DNA from: a bacterium
GTDB lineage: Bacteria > Elusimicrobiota > Elusimicrobia > UBA1565 > UBA9628
Direction: 5' to 3'
Length of the DNA: 64,000 nt
Assembly: GCA_021822495.1 (NCBI GenBank)
Contig: JAKAQO010000006.1
Location: forward strand, 54,302 to 118,301
Position numbers and translations under genes: made by a program. The notes under the pieces are model-generated. The model saw only the letters and a list, made by a program, of their open reading frames with translations. It ran no database searches and was not told the DNA's origin. This document shows positions 45,642 to 61,491 of this stretch, piece by piece (within the stretch, counting starts at the first letter, position 1; each line of letters opens with the position of its first letter).

Positions 45642-46112
45642 ATGGAAATGAACGCGCAACTAAAAAACAATTTAAGCATTGCATTGCTGTATGGGCTATC
45701 ATTCTTTCTTTTATGGTTTAGAAGAAAATATGCAATCGCTCAATTAATAAAACAATCGGCGAACTCTAACTTTGATGTCCTTATTGGCAAAAGTCTAGTG
45801 TATTTCGTTTCAATTGCTCTATTTCTTGTCGCCTTAATCTCTTCAATCCGATGTCTATCTCCCAAATTTAATATGGAAATTAACAAGCTACTTAGCAGCC
45901 AACAAGGAGACAATTTAACTAGCGTATCAATATTTGGGCTTGGGTTTATTATGTTATGGTTTAGAAGAAAATATCTAATCGAGCAATTGACGAGAAATAT
46001 AAACTCCCGCTTCAGTGTTTTTATGGCTACAAGTGGAATGTATATCATCATGTTTGGCATGTTTTTTGTCGCCTTGATCTCTTTGTTCCGTTGCCTATTC
46101 GCAAATTCTTAA
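45642..46112 (+). CDS. Four-helix membrane protein made of two tandem homologous halves
   Basis: A 156-residue protein. Residues about 12-70 and 90-156 are repeats of the same unit: a helix, then LWFRRKY(A/L)I(A/E)QL, a polar loop, then a helix with (F/M)(L/F)(F/V)VALIS(S/L)(I/F)RCL. Each half has the shape of the two-helix family C proteins at 49,550 and 58,883. The start follows CAGGAG. It is the first intact gene of the cargo array. Function unknown; an immunity role is inferred from context. Confidence 0.6.
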   Translation: MEMNAQLKNNLSIALLYGLSFFLLWFRRKYAIAQLIKQSANSNFDVLIGKSLVYFVSIALFLVALISSIRCLSPKFNMEINKLLSSQQGDNLTSVSIFGLGFIMLWFRRKYLIEQLTRNINSRFSVFMATSGMYIIMFGMFFVALISLFRCLFANS

Positions 46113-46125
46113 GAAGCATAATCAA

Positions 46126-46566
46126 ATGAACAAGAAACGAATCGGGCTGTGGACTGGGAGCATCATCGGCGTTGCCTACGCAATCGCAACCCAAATTGAC
46201 ACAATACCGCCTCTATGGCTATCGACTTCAATCGTCCATTTTATCGATAACATTTTGGTTATACTGACATTTACAAATGCAGTTATTACGTTCCTGACGT
46301 TACGGTTGGTTCCCATAAGCTCAGATATATCCGATCTGATTTATGAAGCCGCAAGCGTACTGTATTTCGTCATTCTTGGTGTTCTGGTCGACAGATTGCG
46401 AACGCGCTTTTCTAGGAGCCAGGTATTTTTTATTCTTCTCGGTTTTGTGGTTGTAAACATGGCGCTTATTTTTATTCCACTTTTTTTCTGGCGGAGACTT
46501 TTTGCTTCCGTTTTTATGGGTGGCGTTCCCCCGCTTCTTAGGAAGAACTTCACGGGGCCGCGATGA
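46126..46566 (+). CDS. Small polytopic membrane protein, unknown
   Basis: A 146-residue protein with four predicted helices (about residues 9-26, 42-62, 83-102 and 107-128) and a basic C-terminus. It follows the duplicated membrane protein by 13 bases. A cassette block begins right at its 3' end. No family is recognised. Confidence 0.55.
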   Translation: MNKKRIGLWTGSIIGVAYAIATQIDTIPPLWLSTSIVHFIDNILVILTFTNAVITFLTLRLVPISSDISDLIYEAASVLYFVILGVLVDRLRTRFSRSQVFFILLGFVVVNMALIFIPLFFWRRLFASVFMGGVPPLLRKNFTGPR

Positions 46567-46609
46567 AAAATGTACACAGAGGCAACAACAGCGGCAAGCG
46601 GAAGAAATT

Positions 46610-46710
46610 ATTCTTGCGGGCTTGGAGCGAAAAACAGCGGAAAAAATGAATTCAGAAATTCCGTGGGAGCATGAAGGCATGGGGGAAATAGGGACAGTCC
46701 CCATTTCCCT
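46610..46710 (+). repeat. Cassette repeat block, copy 1
   Basis: The block carries GGGCTTGGAGCGAAAAACAG, then ATGAATTCAGAAATTCCGTG, then GGGAAATAGGGACAG and its inverted half (palindrome at 46,683-46,709). Its first part (the ATGACCAAGCGCGAG segment) is missing or diverged. It is one base shorter than the copy at 53,420, which changes the frame upstream of ATGAATTC. Confidence 0.7.
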
Positions 46711-46840
46711 TGTTCAAGGCGGTCCAGTCATTGAACCGCCGCCTCATTGGATCGTCCCTTTTGAAGACGCCGCAGATCCAAAAACGGGCGAGTGTAAAAT
46801 GCATTGCTATAGAAACTTTTCTACTGGCAAATGTGAGTAA
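46646..46840 (+). CDS. Cassette small ORF: conserved MNSEIPW head, proline-rich tail
   Basis: A 64-residue ORF (an in-frame extension upstream is possible). The head MNSEIPWEHEGMGEIGTVPIS is shared with five other small ORFs in the array. GTVPIS is encoded by the palindrome. The tail LVQGGPVIEPPPHW... is shared in part with the ORFs at 47,780 and 50,141 and then ends in a unique Cys-containing stretch. Whether it is translated is not certain; the conserved head and position are the evidence. Confidence 0.4.
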   Translation: MNSEIPWEHEGMGEIGTVPISLVQGGPVIEPPPHWIVPFEDAADPKTGECKMHCYRNFSTGKCE

Positions 46841-46855
46841 AAATTGGAGAGAAAT

Positions 46856-47698
46856 ATGGGATACATAATAGACTCAGATGCCAAAAATGCTCAAGAGGGC
46901 ATTAATCCAGAAAAACTACTGTCGTTTGATAACAATGCGTTGTCCAGCTTGCAAGAGTTAAACAAGATAATATCCGAACTCTTAGGCCTAATTTTTATAA
47001 GGGATGCCAGAAACATAAACCTGCCTACGATTATGTATTCGACGCTTGCATCTAAATATTTAAAAGCTCGACCACGCCTATGGGAAATCACTCTGGCCAT
47101 GAATATGCTGGGAATTAAAACCCCGCTTTGGCGCATCTCCGCAGCAAAGAATATTCATGGATTACGCTTAGAAGGGCCTCAAATAAATCCTCAGTCTGAA
47201 TGTAAAGCCTGTTCTGGGTGTGGCCGAATCCTTTCAGTGGAGAGCGGACCCTCATCCTATCGCTATCATCGAAAATTAATCCAGAAAATGGATATTGCGA
47301 ATTGCTTGCCTCCATTCTTAGTTGCCCAACACAAGCTGATGGCAAAGGCCATAGACAGAATGCGGGGAGAGGGAGTTTTTGATGATATTCTTCGGTGTGC
47401 GGAACAGTCTTTATTATCCCTCCAACTTCCGATTGACCACTACTCGCTCACTGTCGAGTCCACTATCCACATGAAAACGAAAATTGTCCAATCATGCATT
47501 GGATTGATTCGTCTTACTCCTCGGATATTTATAAATGTGAAGGGAAAAGAAATCCCAGTTAGTTCTAAATGGGAAGCGCAGAAAATATCTGGAAAGAAAT
47601 ACCCTGAGCGTGTACTTTTTTTTCAAGCATGCCCTGTTTGCCTTGGCCGAGGGACGCAATATACCCGGAGGCAAAAAACGGGAAGGAAAAATAAATGA
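46856..47698 (+). CDS. Unrecognised soluble protein with two CxxC-type motifs
   Basis: A 280-residue protein with no signal peptide or membrane helix. The ATG at 46,856 follows GGAGAG; a TTG four codons upstream is less likely. CKACSGCGR (about residues 122-130) and CPVCLGRG (about 262-269) look like two halves of a DnaJ-type zinc site. The last residues (TRRQKTGRKNK) are encoded by sequence that recurs at the ends of other cargo genes. Function unknown. Confidence 0.5.
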   Translation: MGYIIDSDAKNAQEGINPEKLLSFDNNALSSLQELNKIISELLGLIFIRDARNINLPTIMYSTLASKYLKARPRLWEITLAMNMLGIKTPLWRISAAKNIHGLRLEGPQINPQSECKACSGCGRILSVESGPSSYRYHRKLIQKMDIANCLPPFLVAQHKLMAKAIDRMRGEGVFDDILRCAEQSLLSLQLPIDHYSLTVESTIHMKTKIVQSCIGLIRLTPRIFINVKGKEIPVSSKWEAQKISGKKYPERVLFFQACPVCLGRGTQYTRRQKTGRKNK

Positions 47699-47845
47699 CC
47701 AAGCGCGAGCAAAAAAGGTTGGTCCGGTCGAATCTGAAAAATATGTTTCTCAGGGCTTGGAGCGAAAAATAGCGGAGAAATGAATTCAAAAATTCCGTGG
47801 GAGCGCGAAGGCATGAGGGAAATAGGGACAGTCCCTATTTCCCTC
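47695..47845 (+). repeat. Cassette repeat block, copy 2
   Basis: A nearly full block: ATGACCAAGCGCGAGCAAAA, CTGAAAAATATGTTTCTCAG, GGCTTGGAGCG, ATGAATTCA and the perfect palindrome (47,817-47,843, core GGGACAGTCCC). Its upstream frame MTKREQKRLVRSNLKNMFLR is closed by a TAG after AWSEK, where the copy at 53,420 has CAG. Confidence 0.8.
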
Positions 47846-47935
47846 GTTCAAGGCGGTCCAGTCATTGAACCGCCGCCTCAGCAGGTAATCGAAGCTCCGC
47901 CCGAACCAGTGATGGAGCCAAGAGGAACCCAATGA
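47780..47935 (+). CDS. Cassette small ORF with EPPP tail, coupled to the next membrane gene
   Basis: A 51-residue ORF: head MNSKIPWEREGMREIGTVPIS, tail LVQGGPVIEPPPQQVIEAPP and EPVMEPRGTQ. Its TGA overlaps the ATG of the family A membrane gene (ATGA at 47,932). The same PRGTQ end and ATGA overlap recur before the family A gene at 52,936, and a stranded copy occurs at 50,248. The repeated pairing suggests a linked pair of products or a coupling leader. Confidence 0.45.
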   Translation: MNSKIPWEREGMREIGTVPISLVQGGPVIEPPPQQVIEAPPEPVMEPRGTQ

Positions 47936-48603
47936 AACAACCCTTTAATTGGTTTTTTAAAAATAATAACCGCAGAGTACTACTTGTATTCACCATCGCT
48001 TTTCTGCTGGTGGAAGTGTTCTCAGCTTTTGAACCAGAAATGCATCCAATTAGCCATTGGTTGCAAATTCACATACCAGTATGGCTTGCAATTTCTGATA
48101 TCGGTATTGTTGGCATCTGTCTGATGATTACGGCGCATAATCGCCCCTTGGAGCAGGATAAATACGTTTTGTCCATATTGATTCCAGCTTTACTGATTCT
48201 AAGGCCATCTATTAATGTTTTGTTAAACAGTCATGTTGTTTGGGTCAGTGGGGTTGGAGTCATTTTCTTATTAGGATCTACGTTCTATTGGGCAATTGTG
48301 ACAATCCTCCGGCCATTTTTAAACTCAAGAAAAAAAGAACCGTTTCCTGAAATCAAAGGGACATACTACGCTCGCGAAGGAGAAACCTGGACGGACGAAT
48401 TCGAGCATTTAAAAGTCAAAGAAGAATTAGAATATGAGCTCTCCCAGGAATTTCCGGATTTTTGGAGCGCTTCTTCGCATTTTACGAAGCGGAAGAAATT
48501 GGAACTCTTGGAGCGGACCGCAGCGAAGTTCCATGAGAAATATGGCCGCGGGAAAATGGCGTTGAGCGTCAAGGAATTAAAAGAACGAATAGAATCGGCG
48601 TAA
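47932..48603 (+). CDS. Family A membrane protein with conserved C-terminal module
   Basis: A 223-residue protein with four predicted membrane helices. The block SHWLQIHIPVWLAISDIGIVGICLMITAH (about residues 36-64) is shared with the genes at 50,386 and 52,936. The last 75 residues (ETWTDEFEHLKVKEELEYEL... to ELKERIESA) are almost identical to those of the 50,386 protein, at DNA level too, while the membrane part has diverged. It is probably an inner-membrane protein with a cytoplasmic tail. An immunity role is inferred. Confidence 0.6.
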   Translation: MKQPFNWFFKNNNRRVLLVFTIAFLLVEVFSAFEPEMHPISHWLQIHIPVWLAISDIGIVGICLMITAHNRPLEQDKYVLSILIPALLILRPSINVLLNSHVVWVSGVGVIFLLGSTFYWAIVTILRPFLNSRKKEPFPEIKGTYYAREGETWTDEFEHLKVKEELEYELSQEFPDFWSASSHFTKRKKLELLERTAAKFHEKYGRGKMALSVKELKERIESA

Positions 48604-48647
48604 TCATCGTTTGCGCCGCTCAAATTCGCGCCTTGGAGGAGTCAAGA

Positions 48648-48830
48648 ATGTCGGAAGATGGCCAAGAAGCCGTGAGGCGGGAAATAGGGACAGTCCCTAT
48701 TTCCACTACCACTCCTGCTGGAGTGCCCGTTGCCGGAGCGCTCAGCGTAGGAATTGTTGGAGTAGGATCCTGGGCCAGCGCGGCAGAACTTAACGCACTC
48801 CTAACTTGCCGACATCAAGGAGGAAAATAA
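48648..48830 (+). CDS. Cassette small ORF with hydrophobic tail, coupled to a family B gene
   Basis: A 60-residue ORF with a good Shine-Dalgarno (GGAGGAG, six bases before the ATG). Head MSEDGQEAVRREIGTVPIS (palindrome-encoded end), then a Gly/Ala/Val-rich hydrophobic segment (AGVPVAGALSVGIVGVGSWA) and the end LLTCRHQGGK. Its stop overlaps the next start as TAATG. The hydrophobic, glycine-rich tail is reminiscent of small pore-forming peptides, but no bacteriocin family is recognised. Confidence 0.5.
   Translation: MSEDGQEAVRREIGTVPISTTTPAGVPVAGALSVGIVGVGSWASAAELNALLTCRHQGGK
48680..48704. repeat. REP-like palindrome at the cassette junction
   Basis: A perfect palindrome with core GGGACAGTCCC. 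Sequence is shared with 51,041-51,143 up to and including the palindrome and is unrelated after it. Confidence 0.7.
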
Positions 48831-49312
48831 TGAACTGGATCGAATTTACAATTAAATCCTGGTATCACGCCCACTCTAGCCTTTTCCTAACTTTCGTGGC
48901 AATAGCGGGAATTATTGGCGGACATTTTGAATCTGAGAAAAATCTGGGTGGAGCAATTTTTACTTGGCTGATTTCTCTATCAGCTTTGATGGGAGCCATT
49001 ATGCCTTTTTTCCCGTGCGAACCGTCCTATCCTTGGCATATCGCGATGCTCATCGTTTATTTATGTCTCCCTTTACTTATTATTTTTAGACGCAAGAAGC
49101 AGAGTGGCGAAGAGACCTCTAAAAAACCATCTCTTAAAAGACCTCGTATGTTATTGATTGTGGGAAAGGGCGCAGGCGGAGGGTTAATCGCATTTATTAC
49201 TTGCTGGGGTGTTCATTTGGGTTTAGCAGTAGCTACAATCGTCGGCGGAATCTTTGGGTTAATAGTCATCATTAGTTGGATAATTGAAGGCAAAAACAAT
49301 AAAAATCAATGA
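48830..49312 (+). CDS. Family B membrane protein (larger form)
   Basis: A 160-residue protein with four to five helices. The first 45 residues (WYHAHSSLFLTFVAIAGIIGGHFESEKNLGGAIFTWLISL) align with the genes at 55,993 and 56,655 through the pattern FL-x-x-A-x-x-x-x-G/S-x-x-x-S-E/K-K-x-L, then AIFTW. The later half has a second glycine-rich helix pair. The ATG follows AGGAGG. Immunity-like by context only. Confidence 0.55.
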   Translation: MNWIEFTIKSWYHAHSSLFLTFVAIAGIIGGHFESEKNLGGAIFTWLISLSALMGAIMPFFPCEPSYPWHIAMLIVYLCLPLLIIFRRKKQSGEETSKKPSLKRPRMLLIVGKGAGGGLIAFITCWGVHLGLAVATIVGGIFGLIVIISWIIEGKNNKNQ

Positions 49313-49361
49313 AATATGCTACTCCCTAAAAAGAAATTACGCGAACATATAGGGGAAATAA

Positions 49362-49553
49362 ATGAGCAATCGCGAGCAAAAAAGGTTGGTCCGGTCTGGT
49401 GGAATTGGAGAAATTGGGGGGTATATTAATTTTGGCGGACCGCCAAATGCTGGAATTCAGATACCGACACTGGGAATCGGATGGGGGATAGGCGGTGGTT
49501 ATTTTACTGGAGTGATTGATACATCTCCTCTTAGACCTTGGACAATTAAATGA
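49362..49553 (+). CDS. Cassette small ORF with glycine-rich tail, coupled to a family C gene
   Basis: A 63-residue ORF that starts in the frame of the conserved head (MSNREQKRLVRS) and passes directly into a glycine-rich tail: GGIGEIGGYINFGGPP, then LGIGWGIGGGYFTGV. There is no palindrome in this copy. It shows that the MTKREQKR frame is, or was, coding. Its stop overlaps the start of the 49,550 gene (ATGA). Confidence 0.5.
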   Translation: MSNREQKRLVRSGGIGEIGGYINFGGPPNAGIQIPTLGIGWGIGGGYFTGVIDTSPLRPWTIK

Positions 49554-49783
49554 ATCTAATATGGCAAGCGTTGCTCGATTGGAGCTTTTTCTTGATTATG
49601 TTATTTAAGGGGCAAGAAAACTGCGAAAGAGCGATTAGTATTTCTAAATCCATGCACAAGGAGGGCTGGGAACCGCCTAAGATCACTTTATTAATGGTTG
49701 ATGTTGTGAGATACACGCTAACCATAGGCGCTCTTCTGGCGGCCTGTATTGATACTGTACGATTGTTATCCTCATACTTTTGA
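49550..49783 (+). CDS. Family C small membrane protein
   Basis: A 77-residue protein with two helices (about residues 5-20 and 50-72) and a polar loop (ENCERAISISKSMHKEGWEPPK). The size and two-helix plan resemble one half of the duplicated 45,642 protein and the 58,883 protein. It is coupled to the preceding small ORF by ATGA and followed by another family C member after 11 bases. Confidence 0.5.
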   Translation: MNLIWQALLDWSFFLIMLFKGQENCERAISISKSMHKEGWEPPKITLLMVDVVRYTLTIGALLAACIDTVRLLSSYF

Positions 49784-49794
49784 TAAAGGAGAAA

Positions 49795-50136
49795 ATGGCA
49801 GATACAGCTACTCATCTTTTAAAGGCAGGAATAGGTCTCGCGGGACTTATATTCTTTATGGGGATGAGAAAGAGACTTCTTTACGCCGATGGGAAATCCC
49901 ATAAAGCGCTGATAAAGAAAAGTCCCCGGTGGGCGCAAAATATTGCCTCTCTGCTTTTATTCTTTCCACTTTGTCTCGGGATATGCGTTGAGTTGTTCCG
50001 CGCATTCGATCCTGGTTTTATACTTTCTCGACGGGTGTCTTTTGTTTTTTCAGCGGGTTGCCTCGCGGGACTCATGCTTTTGGCATTGGGCATAAAAATT
50101 TATGCAATGTTCTCGAAAAAGCGGGTTAAGGAATGA
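49795..50136 (+). CDS. Family C membrane protein, paralogue of the 59,178 gene
   Basis: A 113-residue protein with three helices. The ATG follows AAAGGAG. The loop RKRLLYADGKSHKALIKKSPRWAQN and the C-terminal CVELFRAFDPGFILSRRVSF are shared with the gene at 59,178. From about 49,986 to 50,136 the two genes appear identical at DNA level, whereas their first halves differ at many positions. Confidence 0.6.
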   Translation: MADTATHLLKAGIGLAGLIFFMGMRKRLLYADGKSHKALIKKSPRWAQNIASLLLFFPLCLGICVELFRAFDPGFILSRRVSFVFSAGCLAGLMLLALGIKIYAMFSKKRVKE

Positions 50137-50140
50137 CCTC

Positions 50141-50248
50141 ATGAGTGAAACAGGGACAGTCCCCATTTCCCTTGTTCAAGGCGGTCCGCCTCAAACAGTA
50201 ATCGAAGCTCCGCCCGAACCAGTGATTGCGCCGAGAGGAACCCAATGA
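50141..50248 (+). CDS. Cassette small ORF, shortened EPPP-type tail without a coupled gene
   Basis: A 35-residue ORF (MSETGTVPISLVQGGPPQTV and then IEAPPEPVIAPRGTQ) that starts four bases after the family C stop, as the ORF at 59,521 does. The end PRGTQ-ATGA matches the junction before family A genes, but here the would-be family A start reads ATGAAATAA, so the downstream gene start is lost. The next family A gene begins 138 bases later with its own ribosome site. Confidence 0.4.
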   Translation: MSETGTVPISLVQGGPPQTVIEAPPEPVIAPRGTQ

Positions 50249-50385
50249 AATAATTTCTGAATATTAAAAACTAAGTAGGCAGGTCTTTTCGACTTTCCCA
50301 TAAATCAGAGGAACAGTAGTAGCAATAAAAGGAGGACTCAGAGAAATAAATTTAGAAATTTAAAAGTGAAGAGAGGAAATCATTT

Positions 50386-51042
50386 ATGAAACGACTATTG
50401 AATTACTCCCGAAAGGATAGACCTCGAGGATATATACTTATTGTGCTCTTTGCATCTTTAATAGGGATGGGCGTGTCAGCCCTTAAGCCAGAAATGCGCT
50501 CAGCTAGTTATTGGATTCAGATACACGCTCCAATATGGATTGCAGTGACAGACACTGCCATAGTAGGCTTTTGTTTAATCCTCATCGCACATGCATTGCG
50601 CACCAAGTCGCCTAAATCTATTTCAGCCATACTGGCTCTCGCTTATACGACTTTTACTCCTACTTTCGTAGTGATGTATGGCGACACGCCAAAACTCGGG
50701 ATGATATTGGAGATTTTTTTAGTTGCATGCGTATTGTATGCAGCTATGATGGTATCGCTTGTAGTGAGTGGAGAGGAAGGTTTTTTGAGAGAAGTCAAGG
50801 ATATTCCCATGCAGGGAGAAGAAACCTGGACGGACGAATTCGAGCATTTAAAAGTCAAAGAAGAATTAGAATATGAGCTCTCCCAGGAATTTCCGGATTT
50901 TTGGAGCGCTTCTTCGCATTTTACGAAGCGGAAGAAATTGGAACTCTTGGAGCGGGCCGCTGCAAAGTTCCATGAGAAATATGGCCGCAGGGAAATGGCG
51001 TTGATCGTTAAGGAATTAAAAGAACGAATAGAATCGGCGTAA
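50386..51042 (+). CDS. Family A membrane protein with conserved C-terminal module
   Basis: A 218-residue paralogue of the 47,932 protein. The helix block SYWIQIHAPIWIAVTDTAIVGFCLILIAH (about residues 44-72) is shared, and the C-terminal 75 residues are nearly identical (ETWTDEFEHLKVKEELEYEL). The membrane part otherwise differs. The start follows GAGAGGAAA. Downstream DNA remains matched to that after 47,932 up to the palindrome, so a 3' cassette of about 320 bases is shared. Confidence 0.6.
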   Translation: MKRLLNYSRKDRPRGYILIVLFASLIGMGVSALKPEMRSASYWIQIHAPIWIAVTDTAIVGFCLILIAHALRTKSPKSISAILALAYTTFTPTFVVMYGDTPKLGMILEIFLVACVLYAAMMVSLVVSGEEGFLREVKDIPMQGEETWTDEFEHLKVKEELEYELSQEFPDFWSASSHFTKRKKLELLERAAAKFHEKYGRREMALIVKELKERIESA

Positions 51043-51086
51043 TTATCGTTTGCGCCGCTCAAATTCGCGCCTTGGAGGAGTCAAGG

Positions 51087-51164
51087 ATGTCGAAAGATGG
51101 CCAAGAAGCCGTGAGGCGGGAAATAGGGACAGTCCCTATTTCCACTGGGAGGATAAGGGCCTAG
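51087..51164 (+). CDS. Cassette small ORF, short version of the 48,648 type
   Basis: A 25-residue ORF: MSKDGQEAVRREIGTVPIS is shared with 48,648, followed by only TGRIRA. The tail was replaced at the palindrome (51,119-51,143). Probably not a functional product; its value is as evidence for the junction. Confidence 0.3.
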   Translation: MSKDGQEAVRREIGTVPISTGRIRA

Positions 51165-51173
51165 AGGACAGTA

Positions 51174-52067
51174 ATGAATACAAACAAAAAAATTCCGTCT
51201 CCGGTGGTTGGAATTTATCAGAGCATATCCATAGTTTTCAGTTGTAGCCTGACTCTATGGCTTATACATGCCATCGGATTTAAAATAAGAATTCTTCGCG
51301 CCATAGGAACATTCACCCTTACCTCTATTTATGGAGTTGTACTCTTTCAAAATAAGCCCGATTTAAGAGGCCTCAAATTCGGCACTTTTAATATTTTTCA
51401 AAAATTGATTTTTATTTATTGTTTATGTGTTTTGAGCGATATTTCTCTACTCTATTTAAGAGACGGTCAGTTTGTTTGGGTCTTGTTGACCTTGACTATA
51501 GTCCTCGTCCTTTCTTCAGTTATGTTGTGGATGTTCTATCTGCCAGAAACGAAGTTTTCGGGCAATCTATTTTTCACCTCTCCGTCTAACATGCGGCCCA
51601 TAACAGAACTTTCTATGGCGTTTTCAATTTTGTTTACATCCTCGTTGCTTATTTTTGCATCCACATGGTTTATTCACGGAAAATCATATCTCAATGGATT
51701 TTTAGCGATAACCCTCTTTTCGATAGTCGGATTCTTCGGAATTTTGCCATTACGCTTAGAATTTTGGGTAAAAAAATATCCTTTTCTTTTGAATCCGGAC
51801 GCGTTTTTTGATCTTCCGGAGATACTCCCAGGATTGACGCCCACACTGTCGATATTATTCATATCATCCCTCATTGGATTCCTATTCTGGCTTAACATAG
51901 TTTTCCTAACCCATTTTGGTCCACCGCGAAATGCAGTTCTCAGTTTCGGGATTGAAGCATTATCCATTGGGTTTATTTTTAAATCCTTTCTTGTAAAAGC
52001 CCGTAGGAAAAGCAACAAAAGATTTGATGATGTACCCAGAGACAAAAGAAGCGGGAAGCAGAAATAA
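51174..52067 (+). CDS. Polytopic membrane protein, unknown
   Basis: A 297-residue protein with eight predicted helices and a basic tail ending RDKRSGKQK. That tail is similar to the ends of the 53,418 (NDTGKQEK) and 55,752 (QRQKKQEK) proteins, because the cassette repeat begins inside the gene ends. AT-rich compared with the chromosome. No family is recognised. Confidence 0.55.
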   Translation: MNTNKKIPSPVVGIYQSISIVFSCSLTLWLIHAIGFKIRILRAIGTFTLTSIYGVVLFQNKPDLRGLKFGTFNIFQKLIFIYCLCVLSDISLLYLRDGQFVWVLLTLTIVLVLSSVMLWMFYLPETKFSGNLFFTSPSNMRPITELSMAFSILFTSSLLIFASTWFIHGKSYLNGFLAITLFSIVGFFGILPLRLEFWVKKYPFLLNPDAFFDLPEILPGLTPTLSILFISSLIGFLFWLNIVFLTHFGPPRNAVLSFGIEALSIGFIFKSFLVKARRKSNKRFDDVPRDKRSGKQK

Positions 52068-52081
52068 AAGGAGTGCAAACT

Positions 52082-52552
52082 ATGATCAAAGTGAAAAATT
52101 GGGTTATTTTGATGATGTTGGCAACCATGGCTATTTCTTTGTTTTATGGTTGCGATCTTAGATACGGATTTCTCCTCGGAAATTTTCGCTTATCGAAGAA
52201 TTCGAGACTTCCACAATGGATATCAATTCCCCCTGGATATGCAAGATCAGATTTGAACGTCGATATTGTGCAATATTCGTATCGTACAGTGTTTCTTGTT
52301 TATGGTCCGCCGCCAGAGAAGAAACTTCTACTTGAGAAAGCAGGCGTGGAGCGATTGCATCCCGTTTCTCAACGAGAATTCGATGCCCACCAGACAGGGG
52401 CAGTTTACCCAAATTATTCAATAATCACAGTTGATGGTATCAGCGAAATTTTCGAGCAACAGAAACCAGGAAATGTTTTGTTTATCACAGATGATCCATA
52501 CCTAAAAAAAATACTCCCAAGACAGAAAGCCACTACGATCCAGAAACAATGA
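52082..52552 (+). CDS. Small lipoprotein, immunity-like
   Basis: A 156-residue protein. The ATG at 52,082 lies eight bases after AAAAGGAG; a GTG three codons upstream is in frame. The signal segment ends LFYGC, a lipobox-like site with the modified Cys at about residue 23. The following FRLSKNSRLPQWISIPPGYARSDLNVDIVQYS is a pattern I associate with small lipoproteins found near polymorphic toxins in proteobacteria. The function is inferred from that and from the array. Confidence 0.5.
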   Translation: MIKVKNWVILMMLATMAISLFYGCDLRYGFLLGNFRLSKNSRLPQWISIPPGYARSDLNVDIVQYSYRTVFLVYGPPPEKKLLLEKAGVERLHPVSQREFDAHQTGAVYPNYSIITVDGISEIFEQQKPGNVLFITDDPYLKKILPRQKATTIQKQ

Positions 52553-52563
52553 AAGGAAAATAA

Positions 52564-52700
52564 ATGACCAAGCGCGAGCAAAAAAACTTGGCCCGGTTGA
52601 ATTTAAAAAATATGTTTTTCATTGGGAGGGTAGCGGGGAAAAATGAATTCAGAAATTCCGTGGGAGCGTGAGGGCATGAGGGAAATAGGAACAGCCCCTG
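52564..52700 (+). repeat. Cassette repeat block, copy 3
   Basis: ATGACCAAGCGCGAGCAAAA, AATATGTTTTTCATTGGGAGG and ATGAATTCAGAAATTCCGTG are present. The middle has diverged (ATTGGGAGGGTAGCGG). The first palindrome is degenerate (GGAACAGCCCC) and a second, GGGGACAGTCCCC, follows at about 52,727. Confidence 0.7.
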
Positions 52701-53418: not shown

Positions 53419-53419
53419 A

Positions 53420-54455: not shown

Positions 54456-54650
54456 ATGAATTATTGGAAACCCGGTAAAACAAAGTCATCTATTACGACT
54501 CGCCGATTTCGGCGCGGAAAACCTCTGCCCTGGAGCCTTTGTATTCGCAAAAGCCGCAAGGCCGCTCGCGCAAAAAGGCGGGAAATAGGGACAGTCCCTG
54601 ACAAACAGCGGAGGAGATTTCTGGGCGAGATCAAGCTTCCATGCAAATAA
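54456..54650 (+). CDS. Possible small basic ORF containing a half palindrome
   Basis: A 64-residue, very basic ORF (RRFRRGKPLPW..., KAARAKRREIGTVPDKQRRRF). Only the left half of the palindrome remains (GGGAAATAGGGACAGTCCC at about 54,583). The end overlaps the next gene by ten bases. It has the usual cassette position but weak coding evidence. Confidence 0.3.
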   Translation: MNYWKPGKTKSSITTRRFRRGKPLPWSLCIRKSRKAARAKRREIGTVPDKQRRRFLGEIKLPCK

Positions 54651-55192
54651 AAAACATAGTTGCATCCATCATGATTATTTTCTTTGAAAATACACTTGCA
54701 GGGGCTCCCCTAAATAAATATTCTCACAAATTCGTAGATAAACGTTTCGGCGAAATTGTAATTGGTAAAGGTCCACATAAATTAAAAAAAATAAAAAATA
54801 TATATGGAAAAGGCTTTTTTTCTAAATATAACGACCAGCTTTGCTATTTTAACGAAGAACTCAATCAATATCTTGACTTTTTCATTGGTCCAGATGATTC
54901 AATCGAAGGGATTCTTGTTTCATATAAAAGTCCAGGCGCTGAATGCAAAAGAGCGGTTACTCATAAAAAAGGAGGGTTTTGTTCTGAAAAGGGCATTTGC
55001 CTTGGAACATCTTACTCCAAATTGATGAAGATTTACGGTAAACCACATAAAGTTAAGAGAACGAAAGAGGAAGTCCAGGTTGAATACCATACGGATTACA
55101 AGCAAGACCCTCAAGTTTCTCTTGCATATGATTCTAGCTATAAATTTAAGCATGGAAAACTTTTTGAATTGATGGTTTGGGATGGTGAATAA
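54641..55192 (+). CDS. Secreted protein of unknown function
   Basis: A 183-residue protein with a signal peptide (IVASIMIIFFENTLAGAP), a Lys-rich mature part and three or four cysteines (LCYF, GAECKRAV, GFCSEKGICLG) that could form disulfides in the periplasm. Very AT-rich. The fold SYSKLMKIYGKPHKVKRTKEEVQVEYHTDY resembles small beta domains of the BamE/SmpA kind, but this is weak. A periplasmic immunity protein is one option. Confidence 0.5.
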   Translation: MQIKNIVASIMIIFFENTLAGAPLNKYSHKFVDKRFGEIVIGKGPHKLKKIKNIYGKGFFSKYNDQLCYFNEELNQYLDFFIGPDDSIEGILVSYKSPGAECKRAVTHKKGGFCSEKGICLGTSYSKLMKIYGKPHKVKRTKEEVQVEYHTDYKQDPQVSLAYDSSYKFKHGKLFELMVWDGE

Positions 55193-55221
55193 TGGGAGGC
55201 AAAAAGCGGTAAAGGGGATAA

Positions 55222-55752
55222 ATGATCACTAAAAATATTCAAAAAATAAAAATCATTAATCGACAATTCAAGCTCCTTAAGGAGAAAAAATGTTGGTATG
55301 TTTCTTGTGGGCGAAACGTTGGCAGTTCTTTCCAGCTTTGCTTGGGAGAAAAGATCAGAAGAAAAAAAGCTCTTGGCAATAAATTCCACCCTAAGTCTTT
55401 TAGAGAAAATACTGCCGAATACGCCTTTCTTGTATGGTGTAGTTGGCGATTATCAAAGGACGAAAAACTGATCGTGACAAGCGACGATTGTGATAACCAT
55501 TATAAGTGGTGCAAATACTTACGAAAACTGATCGGATTGAGGATCATCAAAATTCAGCTAATGAACTGTTTTTTTGATTTTAAAATAATTTTTAATGAAG
55601 GTTGGCAAATACATATTTTTTGCGATAACGGCAATAAAGATCCAAGCATAGACACTAATTGGGAAATATTTATTCCTGGAGATTATCTCATTAGCGTGGG
55701 AACTCATCAAAATATTGATTGCCCCCAGAGACAAAAGAAGCAGGAAAAATAA
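55222..55752 (+). CDS. Cytoplasmic immunity-like protein (DUF6188-type pattern)
   Basis: A 176-residue protein without signal peptide. CWYVSCGRNVGSSFQLCLGEKI near the start and LIGLRIIKIQLMNCFFDFKI, WQIHIFCDNG..., NWEIFIPGDYLISVG near the end follow the beta pattern of small immunity families in polymorphic toxin loci. The last residues (PQRQKKQEK) come from the cassette repeat. This is the clearest soluble immunity candidate; similarity is by eye. Confidence 0.45.
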   Translation: MITKNIQKIKIINRQFKLLKEKKCWYVSCGRNVGSSFQLCLGEKIRRKKALGNKFHPKSFRENTAEYAFLVWCSWRLSKDEKLIVTSDDCDNHYKWCKYLRKLIGLRIIKIQLMNCFFDFKIIFNEGWQIHIFCDNGNKDPSIDTNWEIFIPGDYLISVGTHQNIDCPQRQKKQEK

Positions 55753-55753
55753 A

Positions 55754-55898
55754 ATGACCAAGCGCGAGCAAAAAAGGTTGCTCCGGTTGAATCTGAAAAA
55801 TATGTTTCTCAGGGCTTGGAGCGAAAAATAGCGGAGAAAAATGAATTCAGAAATTCCGTGGGAGCGTGAAGGCATGGGGGAAATAGGGACCCATTTCC
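55754..55898 (+). repeat. Cassette repeat block, copy 5
   Basis: A nearly full block (ATGACCAAGCGCGAGCAAAA, AATATGTTTCTCAGGGCTTG, ATGAATTCAGAAATTCCGTG). The first frame stops at TAG after AWSEK as in copy 2. The palindrome has lost five bases (GGGACCCATTTCCCC), which changes the frame of the following tail. Confidence 0.75.
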
Positions 55899-55993
55899 CC
55901 CTACAAGTGATTAAAGCAGGATCAATTGCTTTCAGTGAGGTCATCGAACTTGCCGCCGTTCTTGCTTTATCTCATTGTTGGGGTGGGAGATAA
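55841..55993 (+). CDS. Cassette small ORF with hydrophobic tail, coupled to a family B gene
   Basis: A 50-residue ORF: MNSEIPWEREGMGEIGTHFP then a hydrophobic helix (VIKAGSIAFSEVIELAAVLA) and the end LSHCWGGR. TAATG couples it to the 55,993 gene. The end resembles ITHCWAGK of the ORF before 56,655 and LLTCRHQGGK before 48,830, all three upstream of family B proteins. It is too short for many gene finders. Confidence 0.5.
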   Translation: MNSEIPWEREGMGEIGTHFPLQVIKAGSIAFSEVIELAAVLALSHCWGGR

Positions 55994-56472
55994 TGATGTT
56001 ACATAAAATTTTTACTGCCTACCCAATCGCAAGCTATCTATTGCTATTTGTGGCTCTAATTTTTTCCGCTTACCGCGATTCCAAGAAAGGCTTAGGCATG
56101 GTAGCATTGGAGTGGTGGTACGGGCTCCCCATTCTAATTATGCTCGACATCCCTATTTGTCGGAAATTTCATTTTGGAATTATCATAACTTGGGCTACGA
56201 TAATTACATCCCTTATTATTTATATCAGCATGCTTCCATTTTTAACGGCGAAATGGAATAAATCTGGGCGGCCAAATGAAAATTCCAATAGTATGCAAAT
56301 TGGGGGTGTCATAGGCTTAGCTATCGGGTTTGTTATTGGGCTAATTAGTATCACTTTAGTAGAGGTTTTTGGGCATTATTATTGGCCGGTAGGTGTGTTG
56401 TCCTGGGGGGCAATGGGTAGCGCTCTAGCAGGATTTATTGTGGGTGCCATTATTGGAAAAAATCGCTCTTGA
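55993..56472 (+). CDS. Family B membrane protein (larger form)
   Basis: A 159-residue protein with four to five helices. YLLLFVALIFSAYRDSKKGLGMVALEWWYGL (about residues 14-44) aligns with the family B pattern, and a glycine-rich helix pair ends the protein (IGGVIGLAIGFVIGLI, GAMGSALAGFIVGAIIG). The start is taken from the TAATG overlap. Its stop overlaps a TTG that opens the next small ORF. Confidence 0.55.
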   Translation: MMLHKIFTAYPIASYLLLFVALIFSAYRDSKKGLGMVALEWWYGLPILIMLDIPICRKFHFGIIITWATIITSLIIYISMLPFLTAKWNKSGRPNENSNSMQIGGVIGLAIGFVIGLISITLVEVFGHYYWPVGVLSWGAMGSALAGFIVGAIIGKNRS

Positions 56473-56651
56473 TCATTCGGTTTAACGCAGTCGGACTTCG
56501 CAATCTGGAGGCGCAAAGCGCCGAGGATGTCGAAGATCAATACAGGGAGGTCTTTGGGACTTCAATGAACTCGCGGACTTTTGAGCTGCGCTTGACGAGG
56601 GAAATAGGGACAGCCCCCATTTCCATCACTCATTGTTGGGCAGGGAAATAG
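56469..56651 (+). CDS. Cassette small ORF ending HCWAGK, upstream of a family B gene
   Basis: A 60-residue ORF from a TTG that overlaps the previous stop (TTGA). IIRFNAVGLRNLEAQSAEDVED resembles, in frame, the region VIIVCAAQIRALEESRMSEDGQE upstream of and within the 48,648 ORF, so this may be the more complete form of that head. A degenerate palindrome (GGGACAGCCCCC) gives REIGTAPIS. The tail ITHCWAGK matches the family B type. The next gene starts three bases after its stop. Confidence 0.45.
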   Translation: MIIRFNAVGLRNLEAQSAEDVEDQYREVFGTSMNSRTFELRLTREIGTAPISITHCWAGK

Positions 56652-56654
56652 ATT

Positions 56655-56954
56655 ATGCATTATCTAATGCTTTTAGAAACTTGGGGCGATGCTCATCGTT
56701 CAATCAGCTTTTTAATCCTAGCAATCTTTCTTTCCATCGGTGGTTACCAAGAATCAAAAAGATCTCTTACTTCGGCAATTTTTACATGGTTCTATGCGTT
56801 ATCATTTTTCGTTATAGCGGCTGTCGGATTTGCCATGTTTATAGGAGTCGGATCCTCACTCAGTGTACGACTTCTAGTCGCAGTATTTACACTGATTACA
56901 GCAATTGCTGTATTGGGGATATATTTAGTTATTCGGTGGAGAAAAAATAAATGA
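56655..56954 (+). CDS. Family B membrane protein (short form)
   Basis: A 99-residue protein with three helices. SISFLILAIFLSIGGYQESKRSLTSAIFTWFYALSFF (about residues 15-51) is the family B core, close to that of the 48,830 protein. It lacks the second half of the larger members. Its stop overlaps the ATGAATTC of the next cassette block. Confidence 0.55.
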   Translation: MHYLMLLETWGDAHRSISFLILAIFLSIGGYQESKRSLTSAIFTWFYALSFFVIAAVGFAMFIGVGSSLSVRLLVAVFTLITAIAVLGIYLVIRWRKNK

Positions 56955-57073
56955 ATTCAGAAATCTCGTGGGAGCGTGAAGGCATGAGGGAAATAGGGAC
57001 AGTCCCTGACATGAATTGCCAAGCCTTGAGAGCGGGGGACAGCCCCCATTTCCATTGGGATCCCACATGTTGA
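56951..57073 (+). CDS. Cassette small ORF, terminal copy
   Basis: A 40-residue ORF: MNSEISWEREGMREIGTVPD then MNCQALRAGDSPHFHWDPTC. The tail MNCQAL(R/G)(A/V)GDSPHF is shared with the 52,643 ORF. It overlaps the previous stop (ATGA). Two degenerate palindromes lie in it. No partner gene follows; the AlbA_2 gene comes next under its own promoter. Confidence 0.35.
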   Translation: MNSEISWEREGMREIGTVPDMNCQALRAGDSPHFHWDPTC

Positions 57074-57110
57074 ATGCGGAGTTCATTTCAACGGCAAATT
57101 CTCGTGGGTC

Positions 57111-57213
57111 TTACATATAGTTCTAGCCGCCAAGAGGGCTTTCTCCGTCGTATTATTACATATAGTTTAAATATAGTTTACATATTGACATGTCAGCGTC
57201 ATTAAAGTATCCT
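57111..57213 (+). promoter_or_regulatory. Promoter with operator-like repeats for the AlbA_2 gene; leaderless start
   Basis: TTGACA (57,185-57,190), a 17-base spacer and TATCCT (57,208-57,213) form a good sigma-70 promoter. Transcription would start at or beside the ATG at 57,220. Just upstream are copies of TTACATATAGTT (about 57,111 and 57,155) and AAATATAGTTTACATAT that reach the -35 box. They look like an operator for repression, possibly by the gene's own product. Confidence 0.5.
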
Positions 57214-57219
57214 ATCGTT

Positions 57220-58683
57220 ATGGAATCCAATTCTTGGATCGCTCGCGCTCAAGACTTACTGCGCCGAAGCCTCGATCTATCGGTTCCCCATGAGCTCAAT
57301 GAGCTGGATTGGAAGCGCGAGTTGAGTTCCAACAAGGAGCGCTTTACCGAGCACCTGTCGGCTTTTGCGAACCTTGACCAGGGCGGCTTTTTGGTTTTCG
57401 GGGTGACGCATGACGGCAAAAAAGCCGGGATTGACTCATCGGCCGTTAAAAACATCATTGAGAAGATAGGCAATGCCGCCAGGGACGGACTAGAACCGTC
57501 CTGCGCGATAGACCATTTCATAGAGAAAACCGAAACGCCGGGCAAGGTCCTGCTTTATATTCACATCCCCGGCTCAACGCAAAAGCCCGTGCGCCTGCGC
57601 GGGAAAAGCCTGGAGTTTTCATTTATCCGCAGCGCCGGACAAACCAGAAAAATGAACGAAAGCGAAATCCGCGCGGCGTTATTGCGCTCACGGACATTGC
57701 GGTTCGAGGAGCTGACCATCAATTCGGCGGAATCTGCGGCAATTTTAGAGGACTTTGAGATCTCCGCGGTCTGCCAAAGGCTTAAAATCCCATTTTCAGG
57801 CGAGCCCGAGCGGCGCGGTGAAATCATGGTCAATCGCAAATTCGCGGCAAAAACCGCGACAGGCCTCGCGCCAACTTATCTTGGCGTTCTCGTTACCGGC
57901 AAGGATTTCAGAAAATTGCCCGGAGCGGAACATTACGGAATTCGGCTGACAAGATACCGGGGGAATTCCAAATTGGAGGCCGAGCGCGATGAATTTTATT
58001 TTAAGGGTTTCGTCCATTCCTTGGACCAGCTGATTGATGACATTATGGGCCTTCTTCCCAAGAGCGAAGTCATCGAAAAAGCCACGCGAAGACAAGTCCC
58101 CGTCTATCCGGAGATCGCCCTGCGCGAATTGATCGCCAACGCCGTCATCCACCGAGACTACTCTCGCACCGACAGCTACGTCCAGGTGGAAATATTCGAT
58201 GACAGAATCGAAATAACCAATCCCGGCTCTTTGTTGCCCGACATGGCCGTTGACCGACTCATCGATCAGCAGCCGCGAGCGCGCAACGAGATCCTGGCCG
58301 CCCTCATGCGCGAACTCGGTTTTTGCGAGGAGCGTGGCAGCGGAATAGATAAAGCGGCATCTTCCCTTGAGCTCTACGGCCTTCCGGCCGTTCATTTCAT
58401 CAACAATCCCGATTATTTTCGCGCTATTCTTTACGCGCCCAAGCCCTATAAAGCCATGGACAACGAGGAGAGACTGAGGACCGCTTACCAGCATGTTTGC
58501 CTGCACTATGTCGCGGGGCAAAAGGTGACCAATGCTTCATTAAGAGCTCGCCTAAAACTCTCCGGAAACCAGTCGCAACTGGTTTCCGCGCTGATTCGCA
58601 AGGCGATCGACGCTAATTTAATCAAGATCGCCAATCCGGGAGCGTCTCCGCGCTATATTCATTATGTTCCCTATTGGGCATAA
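57220..58683 (+). CDS. Schlafen AlbA_2 / HATPase_c_4 regulator (COG2865-like)
   Basis: A 487-residue protein. The AlbA_2 domain is at about residues 15-150 (ELDWKRELSSNKERFTEHLSAFANLDQGGFLVFGVTHDG). A GHKL-type ATPase-like domain follows with RELIANAVIHRDYSRTDSYV and IEITNPGSLLPD (about 302-345), and a winged helix ends the protein. The start at 57,220 fits the promoter geometry; an ATG ten codons upstream overlaps the -35 box. Its base composition is closer to the chromosome than to the small cargo genes. Such proteins occur widely on mobile elements as regulators of uncertain role. Confidence 0.8.
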   Translation: MESNSWIARAQDLLRRSLDLSVPHELNELDWKRELSSNKERFTEHLSAFANLDQGGFLVFGVTHDGKKAGIDSSAVKNIIEKIGNAARDGLEPSCAIDHFIEKTETPGKVLLYIHIPGSTQKPVRLRGKSLEFSFIRSAGQTRKMNESEIRAALLRSRTLRFEELTINSAESAAILEDFEISAVCQRLKIPFSGEPERRGEIMVNRKFAAKTATGLAPTYLGVLVTGKDFRKLPGAEHYGIRLTRYRGNSKLEAERDEFYFKGFVHSLDQLIDDIMGLLPKSEVIEKATRRQVPVYPEIALRELIANAVIHRDYSRTDSYVQVEIFDDRIEITNPGSLLPDMAVDRLIDQQPRARNEILAALMRELGFCEERGSGIDKAASSLELYGLPAVHFINNPDYFRAILYAPKPYKAMDNEERLRTAYQHVCLHYVAGQKVTNASLRARLKLSGNQSQLVSALIRKAIDANLIKIANPGASPRYIHYVPYWA

Positions 58684-58807
58684 ATGAGAAAGCATAAGTT
58701 AATATCCGTGGTCGAGAAACCGCGATGAAAAGCCTCAAGGCGTTTATTCGCATCAAACTGGGCGCGCCGTTTTGAAAGTATCCAGTTTTGGCCGATTTTA
58801 ATGGGAG

Positions 58808-58851
58808 CGTGAAGGCATGAGGGAAATAGGGACCGTCCCCATTTCCCATTA
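58808..58851 (+). repeat. Truncated cassette block with palindrome
   Basis: TGGGAGCGTGAAGGCATGAG and GGGAAATAGGGAC-C-GTCCCC remain of the cassette block in the 200-base gap after the AlbA_2 gene. The start codon ATGAATTC is gone. Otherwise I see nothing in 58,684-58,882 except a ribosome site (AAAGGAGAG) before 58,883. Confidence 0.6.
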
Positions 58852-58882
58852 AACAAATTCGGATTTTAAAGGAGAGAAAAAA

Positions 58883-59152
58883 ATGCCAGATACAGCTACT
58901 AATCTCAATAATCTAGTTCAGGGCTTGGTCATGTTGACTATGGGTATCATCTTATTTCTCAAGCGCGAAGAATTCATTAATAAGGCGCTTAGGTCAGAAG
59001 AGGTGTTCTGGAATATCAAGTACACTGGCAATGAGCCAGGCATGTGGTTTAAAAAATTCATCGGGAAATTTGTTATCTACTCTATAAGTTTTGTTTTTGT
59101 CGTAGGTGGTTTCAGCTTTGTCTGGACCGCTTGCCGCAACTTAATACGCTGA
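58883..59152 (+). CDS. Family C small membrane protein
   Basis: An 89-residue protein with two helices (about residues 11-26 and 58-82). LFLKREEFINKALRSEE after helix one and VWTACRNLIR at the end correspond to the LWFRRKYLIEQL and RCL positions of the 45,642 protein. MPDTATNLNNLVQG resembles the start of the 49,795 protein (MADTATHLLKAG). The start follows AAAGGAGAG. It precedes a second family C gene by 25 bases, the same pairing as at 49,550/49,795. Confidence 0.55.
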   Translation: MPDTATNLNNLVQGLVMLTMGIILFLKREEFINKALRSEEVFWNIKYTGNEPGMWFKKFIGKFVIYSISFVFVVGGFSFVWTACRNLIR

Positions 59153-59177
59153 CGAAGGAAAGGAGAGAGAGTTAATT

Positions 59178-59516
59178 ATGGAACGTTTAGAACACTTCTT
59201 AAAGGCAGGAATAGCTTTTGCGGTACTTATATTCTTTATGAGGGCCAGAAAAAGATTCATTGACGCGGCCGAGAAATCCCATAAAACGCTGATAGAAAAA
59301 AGTCCCCGATCAGCGCAAAATATCGCTTACCTGCTTTTATTCCTTCCAATCTTTCTCGCGGCCTGCGTTGAGTTGTTCCGCGCATTCGATCCTGGTTTTA
59401 TACTTTCTCGACGGGTGTCTTTTGTTTTTTCAGCGGGTTGCCTCGCGGGACTCATGCTTTTGGCATTGGGCATAAAAATTTATGCAATGTTCTCGAAAAA
59501 GCGGGTTAAGGAATGA
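59178..59516 (+). CDS. Family C membrane protein, paralogue of the 49,795 gene
   Basis: A 112-residue protein with three helices. RARKRFIDAAEKSHKTLIEKSPRSAQN (about residues 22-48) matches the 49,795 protein with changes. From about 59,366 to the stop the DNA appears identical in the two genes (CVELFRAFDPGFILSRRVSF and on). This is a sign of recent duplication or gene conversion of the 3' half. Confidence 0.6.
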   Translation: MERLEHFLKAGIAFAVLIFFMRARKRFIDAAEKSHKTLIEKSPRSAQNIAYLLLFLPIFLAACVELFRAFDPGFILSRRVSFVFSAGCLAGLMLLALGIKIYAMFSKKRVKE

Positions 59517-59520
59517 TTTC

Positions 59521-59655
59521 ATGAGTGAAATAGGGACAGTCCCCATTTCCACTGGTCCTGTAGCGTACATTTTGAATCGGCTAGAGGTCGCGCCCGATCT
59601 TGCGAAAGCTCTCAGGCAAGGGGCCGCGCCGCGTCGAATATTTGTACTCCGGTGA
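59521..59655 (+). CDS. Cassette small ORF after the family C gene
   Basis: A 44-residue ORF: MSEIGTVPIS (shared with the ORF at 50,141) then TGPVAYILNRLEVAPDLAKA. It begins four bases after the family C stop. The homology with the 50,136-50,173 region ends at the palindrome. Confidence 0.35.
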   Translation: MSEIGTVPISTGPVAYILNRLEVAPDLAKALRQGAAPRRIFVLR

Positions 59656-59716
59656 CGCTTTGTGACGTTACAGGTAATCCCATGAAAATTGGCGAGTAAT
59701 TTGTAAGGAGATATCA

Positions 59717-60760
59717 ATGAAAACCGTATTCTTTTTATTTATCGGCGCGGCAATAACCGCAACTGCCGCCAATCAGAACGAATGGTGGAAAGACCCTAAA
59801 ACACTGAATTTAAGGATCACCCAACAAGGCGCGGCCTCTGTCTTGAATAAACTTTGCCCAAATACTCAACAAGAGACTCAGGCAGAGTATGCTGCGTGGA
59901 TTAATATCTTGGCCAGCATCGGAAGCGGAACCCAGGCATGGCTGGAGATTGCACAAAGGCTGCGACCTGCTGCAGTTGGACCGCAACTCAATGATATAGA
60001 TACCGCGATAGGTCAAGCTGTAGTCTATAACCCGAAACAAGTTCTAGATTTTATAGCGCTTATGTCTGGGTATGGGTATTATACGCCAGCCACCGGGAAA
60101 TATGATTCCAGTTATGTGGATCGTACGTGTGGATTTATAAACGTAGAACAAACAGCGGGCGCTACTTATGACACTCCGGCTCAGTATACCAATGAAATCA
60201 ACAAAAGAGAAAAAGCGCTCAAGACTGTAGTAGCCCCATCACTTCAGCCATGGGTACAAATATGCACTAAAGATCTAGAAAAATCTCGAAAAAACGCGCC
60301 TTCTCAATTCGAAGGCCCAAGCAAGACAGATATAAATCAGTTTGCTGATGATTACAAAAAAACGTACGACAGCATAATTGCAAATCCGAAGCGAGGATGT
60401 GGAGTCTTCAAACGCTTCATTCAGAAATACCCAGACCCAATGGAATTTAGTACCAGCTACGCGCCCATCGCGGTCATGCTTTTGGCCAACAGGATTTCCT
60501 TTGTGCGTTTTATTTCTTTGGCACGAACCGACAAACGATTTTTTCAGATCGTTTTACGCTACATTAAGGAAGCATCTCCCTCGCTGGATCAAGCAATGTT
60601 CAAGCCAGATAAATTGGAATCCATCATCGCTAACACAAAGCATAAATGCCCACATGGCGCAAAAGATATCTGCCTGCCAATAGAGCAAATAGCGAAGGAA
60701 ATTTCTGGGCGGGTTAAAACTTCTAAGCCCAACACTGTCGCCGCGCCCAGGTTGCCTTAG
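59717..60760 (+). CDS. Secreted alpha-helical protein of unknown function
   Basis: A 347-residue protein with a signal peptide (MKTVFFLFIGAAITATAANQ). The segment ASIGSGTQAWLEIAQRLRPAAVGPQLNDI...NPKQVLDFI (about residues 72-117) is a pattern I have seen in small periplasmic proteins of proteobacteria without assigned function. Seven or so cysteines are spread through the mature part. The start follows AAGGAGAT. It could be a periplasmic immunity or inhibitor protein, which is inference. Confidence 0.55.
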   Translation: MKTVFFLFIGAAITATAANQNEWWKDPKTLNLRITQQGAASVLNKLCPNTQQETQAEYAAWINILASIGSGTQAWLEIAQRLRPAAVGPQLNDIDTAIGQAVVYNPKQVLDFIALMSGYGYYTPATGKYDSSYVDRTCGFINVEQTAGATYDTPAQYTNEINKREKALKTVVAPSLQPWVQICTKDLEKSRKNAPSQFEGPSKTDINQFADDYKKTYDSIIANPKRGCGVFKRFIQKYPDPMEFSTSYAPIAVMLLANRISFVRFISLARTDKRFFQIVLRYIKEASPSLDQAMFKPDKLESIIANTKHKCPHGAKDICLPIEQIAKEISGRVKTSKPNTVAAPRLP

Positions 60761-60812
60761 AAGCAGAAATGACAGAGAGAGAAGAAAAGCATGAGTCACA
60801 AATGAGCAAAAA

Positions 60813-61103
60813 ATGAGGGTAATACTTATGTATATGAAGGAACTCCTAATCCCTGGCTGGTTCGTAGTATCAGCCATGATCCAGCTTGTCACCACTTTGG
60901 TATTTCGGTGGTGGCTCCGCCAGAGGGGTGTAAAACTTATATCTGCTTTTGTGGGTATCCCTGGCTACCTAGAGTATGTCTATTTTGAATGGTGCAGGAA
61001 ACGGGGATATTCAATTACAAGAGTCCTTGCTTTTCGTATCGTGTTTCTTGTCAATCTTCTCATTGCGATAAGAGCGAATGTGCCCATTTTAATGGGCAAA
61101 TAG
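60813..61103 (+). CDS. Small membrane protein, last gene of the cargo array
   Basis: A 96-residue protein with two helices (about residues 13-34 and 70-90) separated by a basic/aromatic loop (RWWLRQRGVKLI...EYVYFEWCRKRGYSI). Start codons at 60,813 and 60,831 are possible. No cassette block follows it. Function unknown. Confidence 0.5.
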   Translation: MRVILMYMKELLIPGWFVVSAMIQLVTTLVFRWWLRQRGVKLISAFVGIPGYLEYVYFEWCRKRGYSITRVLAFRIVFLVNLLIAIRANVPILMGK

Positions 61104-61479: not shown

Positions 61480-61491
61480 CCAACCCCCGCT

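Follow-up and report, generated by a model that had tools for sequence, protein, structure and literature searches.

Arrays of orphan immunity genes have been best studied in gut Bacteroidales. In the recombinase-associated acquired interbacterial defence (rAID) systems of Bacteroidales, a tyrosine recombinase lies upstream of co-oriented short orphan genes of ~100-300 codons that have a low GC content and share a conserved intergenic motif (PMC12247911). Heterogeneous polyimmunity loci are tandem arrays of immunity genes in the same orientation, separated by short gaps, that mix unrelated and paralogous members, hold no intact toxin, have a recombinase nearby and vary in content between close relatives (Zhang et al. 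2012, PMC3482391). In the type VI secretion system (T6SS) clusters of Vibrio cholerae, orphan immunity arrays arise via effector displacement, with the toxin lost and the immunity gene kept (PMC5361080). Here we describe a locus that shares many of these traits, in a 64,000-nucleotide stretch (the window) of the genome of an Elusimicrobiota bacterium. It is probably a polyimmunity array, that is, an integrative element in a tRNA-Gln gene that stores orphan immunity genes, and we judge it to be a variant of a known array type, polyimmunity or rAID-like, in an unrelated host.

The array lies on a mobile element of ~19 kb (44741-63982) delimited by an exact 45-bp direct repeat. The right attachment (att) repeat falls in a tRNA gene that is cut off by the end of the contig and that we infer to be tRNA-Gln from its anticodon region; the draft genome measures 2.2 Mb, and the window is the terminal part of its contig 14, which stops where the window stops. 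The reading frame of the tyrosine recombinase, which the initial annotation had already recognised, stays open through the end of the att repeat and continues into the tRNA. Direct repeats with tRNA sequence and an integrase, the features expected of an integrative element in a tRNA gene, are both present.

Between 45642 and 61103 the element carries 20 predicted cargo genes encoding proteins of 77-347 amino acids, all on the + strand, and one gene for a 497-residue AlbA_2/HATPase_c_4 protein (Table 1). The one-strand array of small, AT-rich genes proposed in the initial annotation is thus real, and larger than the about 16 genes counted there; cargo GC ranges from 0.335 to 0.450, with a mean of 0.406 against 0.491 in positions 1-44000 of the window. 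By hydropathy, most products are membrane proteins with two or more helices; c04 and c16 appear soluble, and signal-like N-termini are found in c12, c15 and, from its sequence, c21. The description of the genes as mostly unrelated was too strong, as at least eight fall into three paralogous groups, c05/c10/c13 (family B), c06/c17/c18 (family C) and c09/c20 (family A). Where scanned, no cargo gene reached the Pfam, NCBIfam, PHROG or PADLOC criterion. Family-library scans recognised no toxin domain in any cargo gene, in agreement with the earlier statement that no toxin of normal size is present. At the N-terminal start of c19 (58883-58960), the stretch MPDTATNLNNLVQGLVMLTMGIILFL is similar to an LPxTATN sorting signal, with a match to NCBIfam NF058670 that falls below cut-off (E=5e-5).

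Six of the gaps are <60 bp long and fourteen span 131-383 bp. The near-identical repeat blocks reported between the genes were confirmed: they are built round the palindrome GGGAAATAGGGACAGTCCCYATTTCCC. Its core, GGGACAGTCCC or a close variant, is present in 13 of the 14 gaps of >=100 bp but missing from all six gaps of <60 bp and from every cargo gene. Since this repetitive extragenic palindromic (REP) sequence is found in the long gaps and in none of the short ones, a cassette consists of one gene or two. Scans for promoters and terminators yielded no signal above chance.

Compared with rAID, the likeness drawn by the initial annotation is apt in layout: the locus has a tyrosine recombinase, co-oriented short genes that are probably orphans (20 of 20 co-directional) and an intergenic motif in the long gaps, the comparison being of motif presence. 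Cargo GC averages 40.6%, and 10 of the 20 genes fall below the 41% used for rAID. The spacer is different, as had been said, being a palindrome of the host REP type; the cargo is mostly membrane proteins, and the recombinase is at the 3' extreme, downstream of the array rather than upstream. No homology to T6SS immunity genes was found, and no recognised immunity family occurs among the cargo. We see no support for counting the array among rAID systems proper, because no homologous immunity genes were found and the recombinase position differs, although the array would work like rAID if it does hold immunity genes. With polyimmunity loci the array shares the tandem, same-strand arrangement, the nearby recombinase, the mixture of unrelated and paralogous genes, the lack of an intact or interrupting toxin gene and a content that varies between close relatives. 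It differs in that many of its spacers are REP blocks rather than short gaps and that none of its genes falls in a recognised immunity family; c16 alone is a candidate immunity gene by context, since its relatives adjoin toxin-like genes. Orphan immunity genes accumulating after effector loss would match the Vibrio cholerae arrays; here, in contrast, the array sits on an integrative element, not beside a secretion cluster, and no cognate effector was found in the genome for c16, the one gene tested. Head-to-tail small genes, a palindromic spacer and a tyrosine recombinase also recall an integron cassette array. We rejected an integron, however, as the spacer is a REP-type palindrome and the integrase model TIGR02249 scored over cut-off in none of five genus genomes.

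The immunity reading was best testable for c16. Among 340 genomes of the phylum, relatives of c16 occur in three others only, from three families of the same order. All three start in the stop region of an upstream open reading frame (ORF) of 358-389 codons, with an ATGA overlap in two and an overlap of 8 bp in the third. The upstream proteins have a common C-terminal domain of ~56 residues (53-60% identity; invariant pattern RK.DI.F.D.LV.KY.LD.CQR..LH..I..Q....EI..IA..I) and weakly similar N-terminal parts, and two of them (L070, L071) have a signal-like start; the start of the third (L069) is uncertain. This arrangement, a variable N-terminus and a conserved C-terminal domain followed by a c16 relative, is that of polymorphic toxins and their immunity genes, and the upstream proteins may be called toxin-like by architecture. 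When run against 235 genomes, a profile of the domain strongly matched the same three genomes (E about 1e-36 or lower), with two weak matches elsewhere, one inside an unrelated gene (G006). Were the four c16 genomes and the three domain genomes independent draws from 235, their overlap would have a probability of ~2e-6, a figure that is optimistic given shared ancestry. The profile found no match in the window's genome, where c16 is present, and c16 is therefore an orphan. Neither c16 nor its relative nor the toxin-like protein was matched in a plasmid search; the toxin-like domain alone gave one match, ascribed to chance. The expectation that relatives would lie beside toxins, which could be checked for c16, was thus borne out, and c16 is the best-supported immunity candidate in the array. 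For the other 19 cargo genes no toxin neighbour of relatives was found, because their families hardly occur outside the genus; these genes, too, may encode immunity proteins. The DUF6188 likeness put forward for the soluble protein proved weak: c16 had no match, and two of its relatives reached E=0.014 and 0.16.

Short reading frames upstream of the cargo genes bear on what became of the toxins. In eight of 12 REP-headed units the frame of the palindrome (GTVPIS) reaches its first stop within -20/+8 of the next ATG, where 3.4 were expected (P ~6e-4), a modest statistic that partly reflects short distances. The family C genes are preceded by tails that look related by eye and become shorter, ending in TCRHQGGK, SHCWGGR and THCWAGK, and before c19 the window retains the last codons only (LNKFGF) of a longer Gly-rich frame present in another species (G001). 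This suggests that the tails may be 3' remnants of lost toxins, the alternatives being leader peptides or small toxins. No full-length toxin bearing the tails was found in 235 genomes, three weak matches being judged low-complexity or chance. If the short ORFs were themselves toxins, the units would be still-active pairs of a small bacteriocin-like peptide and a downstream membrane protein that protects the producer. Several ORF stops do overlap the following ATG, a 63-residue Gly-rich ORF overlaps c08, a hydrophobic tail of 41 residues precedes c06, and an ORF ending in GVGGIGIGIGGGASSTVTQTILLTTWSDLLNKFGF lies ahead of the c19-c20 pair of another species. Most of these ORFs, however, are short and unequal, some reaching only 6-14 codons past the palindrome, and have the REP inside the frame; none has an export signal by eye, and the array is without a dedicated exporter or maturation gene. 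We therefore consider active peptide pairs improbable.

The storage of orphan immunity genes is favoured by the genes found beside the c16 relatives and by the layout, with its single strand, small genes, low GC, recombinase and att repeats, as well as by the REP placement, the ORF tails and the cassette differences and mosaic genes described below. Several results weigh against it. The profile searches and structure predictions by which the initial annotation was to be checked gave no assignment: no cargo protein matched a named immunity family in the family-library scans, c16 folded alone at a predicted local distance difference test (pLDDT) score of 30, and c21 was predicted to be all-helical at moderate confidence, with no significant structural match, so that structure prediction gave no help on cargo function. 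The toxin context was examined for c16 only, in three examples, and its partner, toxin-like by architecture only, had no Pfam, NCBIfam or solved-structure match. Family B genes of other species stand alone without a toxin, and the tail statistic is modest.

Comparison with related elements revealed differences in cassettes. In a related species (G002) an element shares c17 and its REP at 97% DNA identity, the AlbA gene at 99% and the stretch ahead of the replication-like gene at 98%, while its recombinase is different (34% identity) and it ends at another tRNA gene, tRNA-Ala by our reading. This element is without window positions 56626-57062, the c18 unit, an indel the size of a cassette with REPs as its borders; the junction is at a REP, and 11 further bases differ. 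The c19-c20 pair is found again in G001, followed by a REP-like sequence, and there a c05 relative lies between two copies of another dispersed repeat. Overall, the genus's other species have few of the cassettes, at different loci, and content differs between close relatives. The related element at L028:7416-16767 adjoins a tRNA gene, read as tRNA-Ala, and carries an HsdR-like ORF, an IS3-type transposase truncating c17 and the shared AlbA gene; in the window this last gene has a GC content above that of the genome's flank and lies inside the AT-rich array.

These neighbours raise the question of an anti-phage defence cluster, in which the small membrane proteins would belong to a defence island and act in abortive infection or exclusion. 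The long HsdR-like (type I restriction) ORF of the G002 element lies near c17 and the AlbA gene, and the AlbA gene has domains in common with PADLOC models associated with prokaryotic Argonautes (pAgo). Nine cargo proteins tested, however, gave no PADLOC match and no PHROG match of weight, the c16 relatives adjoin toxin-like rather than defence genes, and viral contigs (IMG/VR) hold no relatives of c16 or family B, which makes a defence island quite unlikely. The PHROG and IMG/VR results, together with the lack of a phage match for c21, also led us to reject a phage origin.

Within the array, the paralogues bear signs of recombination. The 5' parts of c05 and c10 are 55% identical in DNA, whereas their last 226 bp and the 74 bp downstream are 96% identical; c09 and c20 show the same mosaic pattern (77% 5' versus 98% 3'). 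This homogenisation of 3' ends points to gene conversion or recombination between array units. The palindrome also occurs elsewhere in the window's genome; of four other genus members searched, three have it too. Its core lies on both sides of one of two host Y1_Tnp transposase genes (L090). A transposase gene flanked by REPs is the arrangement of REP-associated transposase (RAYT/REP) systems. As the bases around the core differ between the array and the Y1_Tnp-flanking palindromes, the array palindrome is a related, not identical, REP. Outside the element, at 31421, 36149, 36491 and 36653, lie REP cores of the AAAAGGGGACAGTCCCCTTTT type, similar to the ones on either side of the Y1_Tnp gene. 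A match to the REP-encoded peptide in G003 (L027) was rejected as a cassette, the palindrome lying within another reading frame. In another genus member (L025:13748-16330) a nearly exact 858-bp tandem duplication carries a HicA/HicB-like pair, with an adjacent RelE-like ORF and REPs between the copies.

REPs dispersed at ordinary loci in the genus, even inside a reading frame, and some decayed sequence such as frame-broken block copies would also fit neutral accretion, in which repeat-driven recombination collects foreign AT-rich genes of no common function. Yet twenty intact genes stand on one strand, their coding parts are free of stops and the same three families were recruited repeatedly; we find an accretion of this kind hard to credit. 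For an array of stored immunity genes, the one or two genes of each cassette would encode protection against a toxin that other bacteria deliver, with the products neutralising it, the membrane proteins countering toxins that act at or in the membrane and the few secreted or soluble proteins countering others. The matching toxin genes would have been lost, several leaving a short reading frame just upstream. Cassettes separated by REPs of the type that flanks the host REP transposase gene may be gained, lost and homogenised at their 3' ends by recombination at or near the REPs, and the whole array would move with the recombinase. A stronger version, which we regard as rather unlikely, is that the host REP/RAYT system is the assembly machinery of the array: REPs would mark the cassette borders, and recombination there would gather, trim and exchange cassettes, trimming would remove the toxin and leave the coupled reading-frame stub, and the result would be integron-like capture without integron parts. 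An apparent gene remnant ending in LNKLMEKNLLRRVGKGPATRYEVVRS lies at 45180-45340, between the left att repeat and c01.

Table 1. Features of the element and its cargo array (window coordinates)
Feature	Position	Strand	Remarks
Left att repeat, 45 bp	44741-44785	.	5' part of predicted tRNA-Gln; exact copy of 63938-63982
c01, membrane protein	45642-46112	+	two repeats of ~75-residue unit
c02, membrane protein	46126-46566	+	
Repeat block with REP palindrome (example)	46660-46725	+	
Further palindrome cores	47825, 48687, 50153, 51126, 52685, 52728, 53548, 54588, 55886 (degenerate), 56607, 56996, 57036, 58829, 59533		
c04, soluble protein	46856-47698	+	CxxC motifs
c05, family B membrane protein	47932-48603	+	upstream ORF ending PPEPVMEPRGTQ overlaps c05 ATG
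c06, family C membrane protein	48830-49312	+	upstream ORF tail ending SWASAAELNALLTCRHQGGK overlaps c06 ATG
Gly-rich peptide ORF	49362-49553	+	
c08, small membrane protein	49550-49783	+	
c09, family A membrane protein	49795-50136	+	81% amino acid identity to c20
c10, family B membrane protein	50386-51042	+	
c11, membrane protein	51174-52067	+	eight transmembrane segments
c12, putative secreted protein or lipoprotein	52082-52552	+	one N-terminal hydrophobic segment
c13, family B membrane protein	52936-53418	+	without cytosolic tail
c14, membrane protein	53598-54455	+	eight transmembrane segments
c15, secreted protein	54641-55192	+	N-terminal signal-like segment
c16, soluble protein	55222-55752	+	best-supported immunity gene candidate; relatives overlap stops of toxin-like genes
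c17, family C membrane protein	55993-56472	+	3' part 100% identical (amino acids) in related species' element
c18, family C membrane protein	56655-56954	+	unit missing from related element
AlbA_2/HATPase_c_4 protein	57190-58683	+	GC 0.53; between c18 and c19; 99.4% amino acid identity in related element
c19, small membrane protein	58883-59152	+	
c20, family A membrane protein	59178-59516	+	c19-c20 pair kept in another species (L030)
c21, all-helical protein	59717-60760	+	N-terminal signal-like segment
c22, small membrane protein	60813-61103	+	
Possible replication/relaxation-type protein	61705-62583	+	weak matches only
HTH_17 (excisionase-like) protein	62570-62824	+	domain match; near right end with recombinase
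Tyrosine recombinase	62821-63982	+	PF00589 E=7e-32 over 62821-63900
Right att repeat	63938-63982	.	5' part of tRNA gene
tRNA gene at right end	63944-64000+		Rfam match; truncated by contig end

The c16 family and the toxin-like C-terminal domain are a candidate immunity/toxin pair, neither of which matched a curated family here. If the array is what we propose, an independent array with REP cassette borders in an uncultured lineage would suggest that bacteria collect antidotes as a general strategy, with ordinary dispersed repeats able to act as cassette joints.

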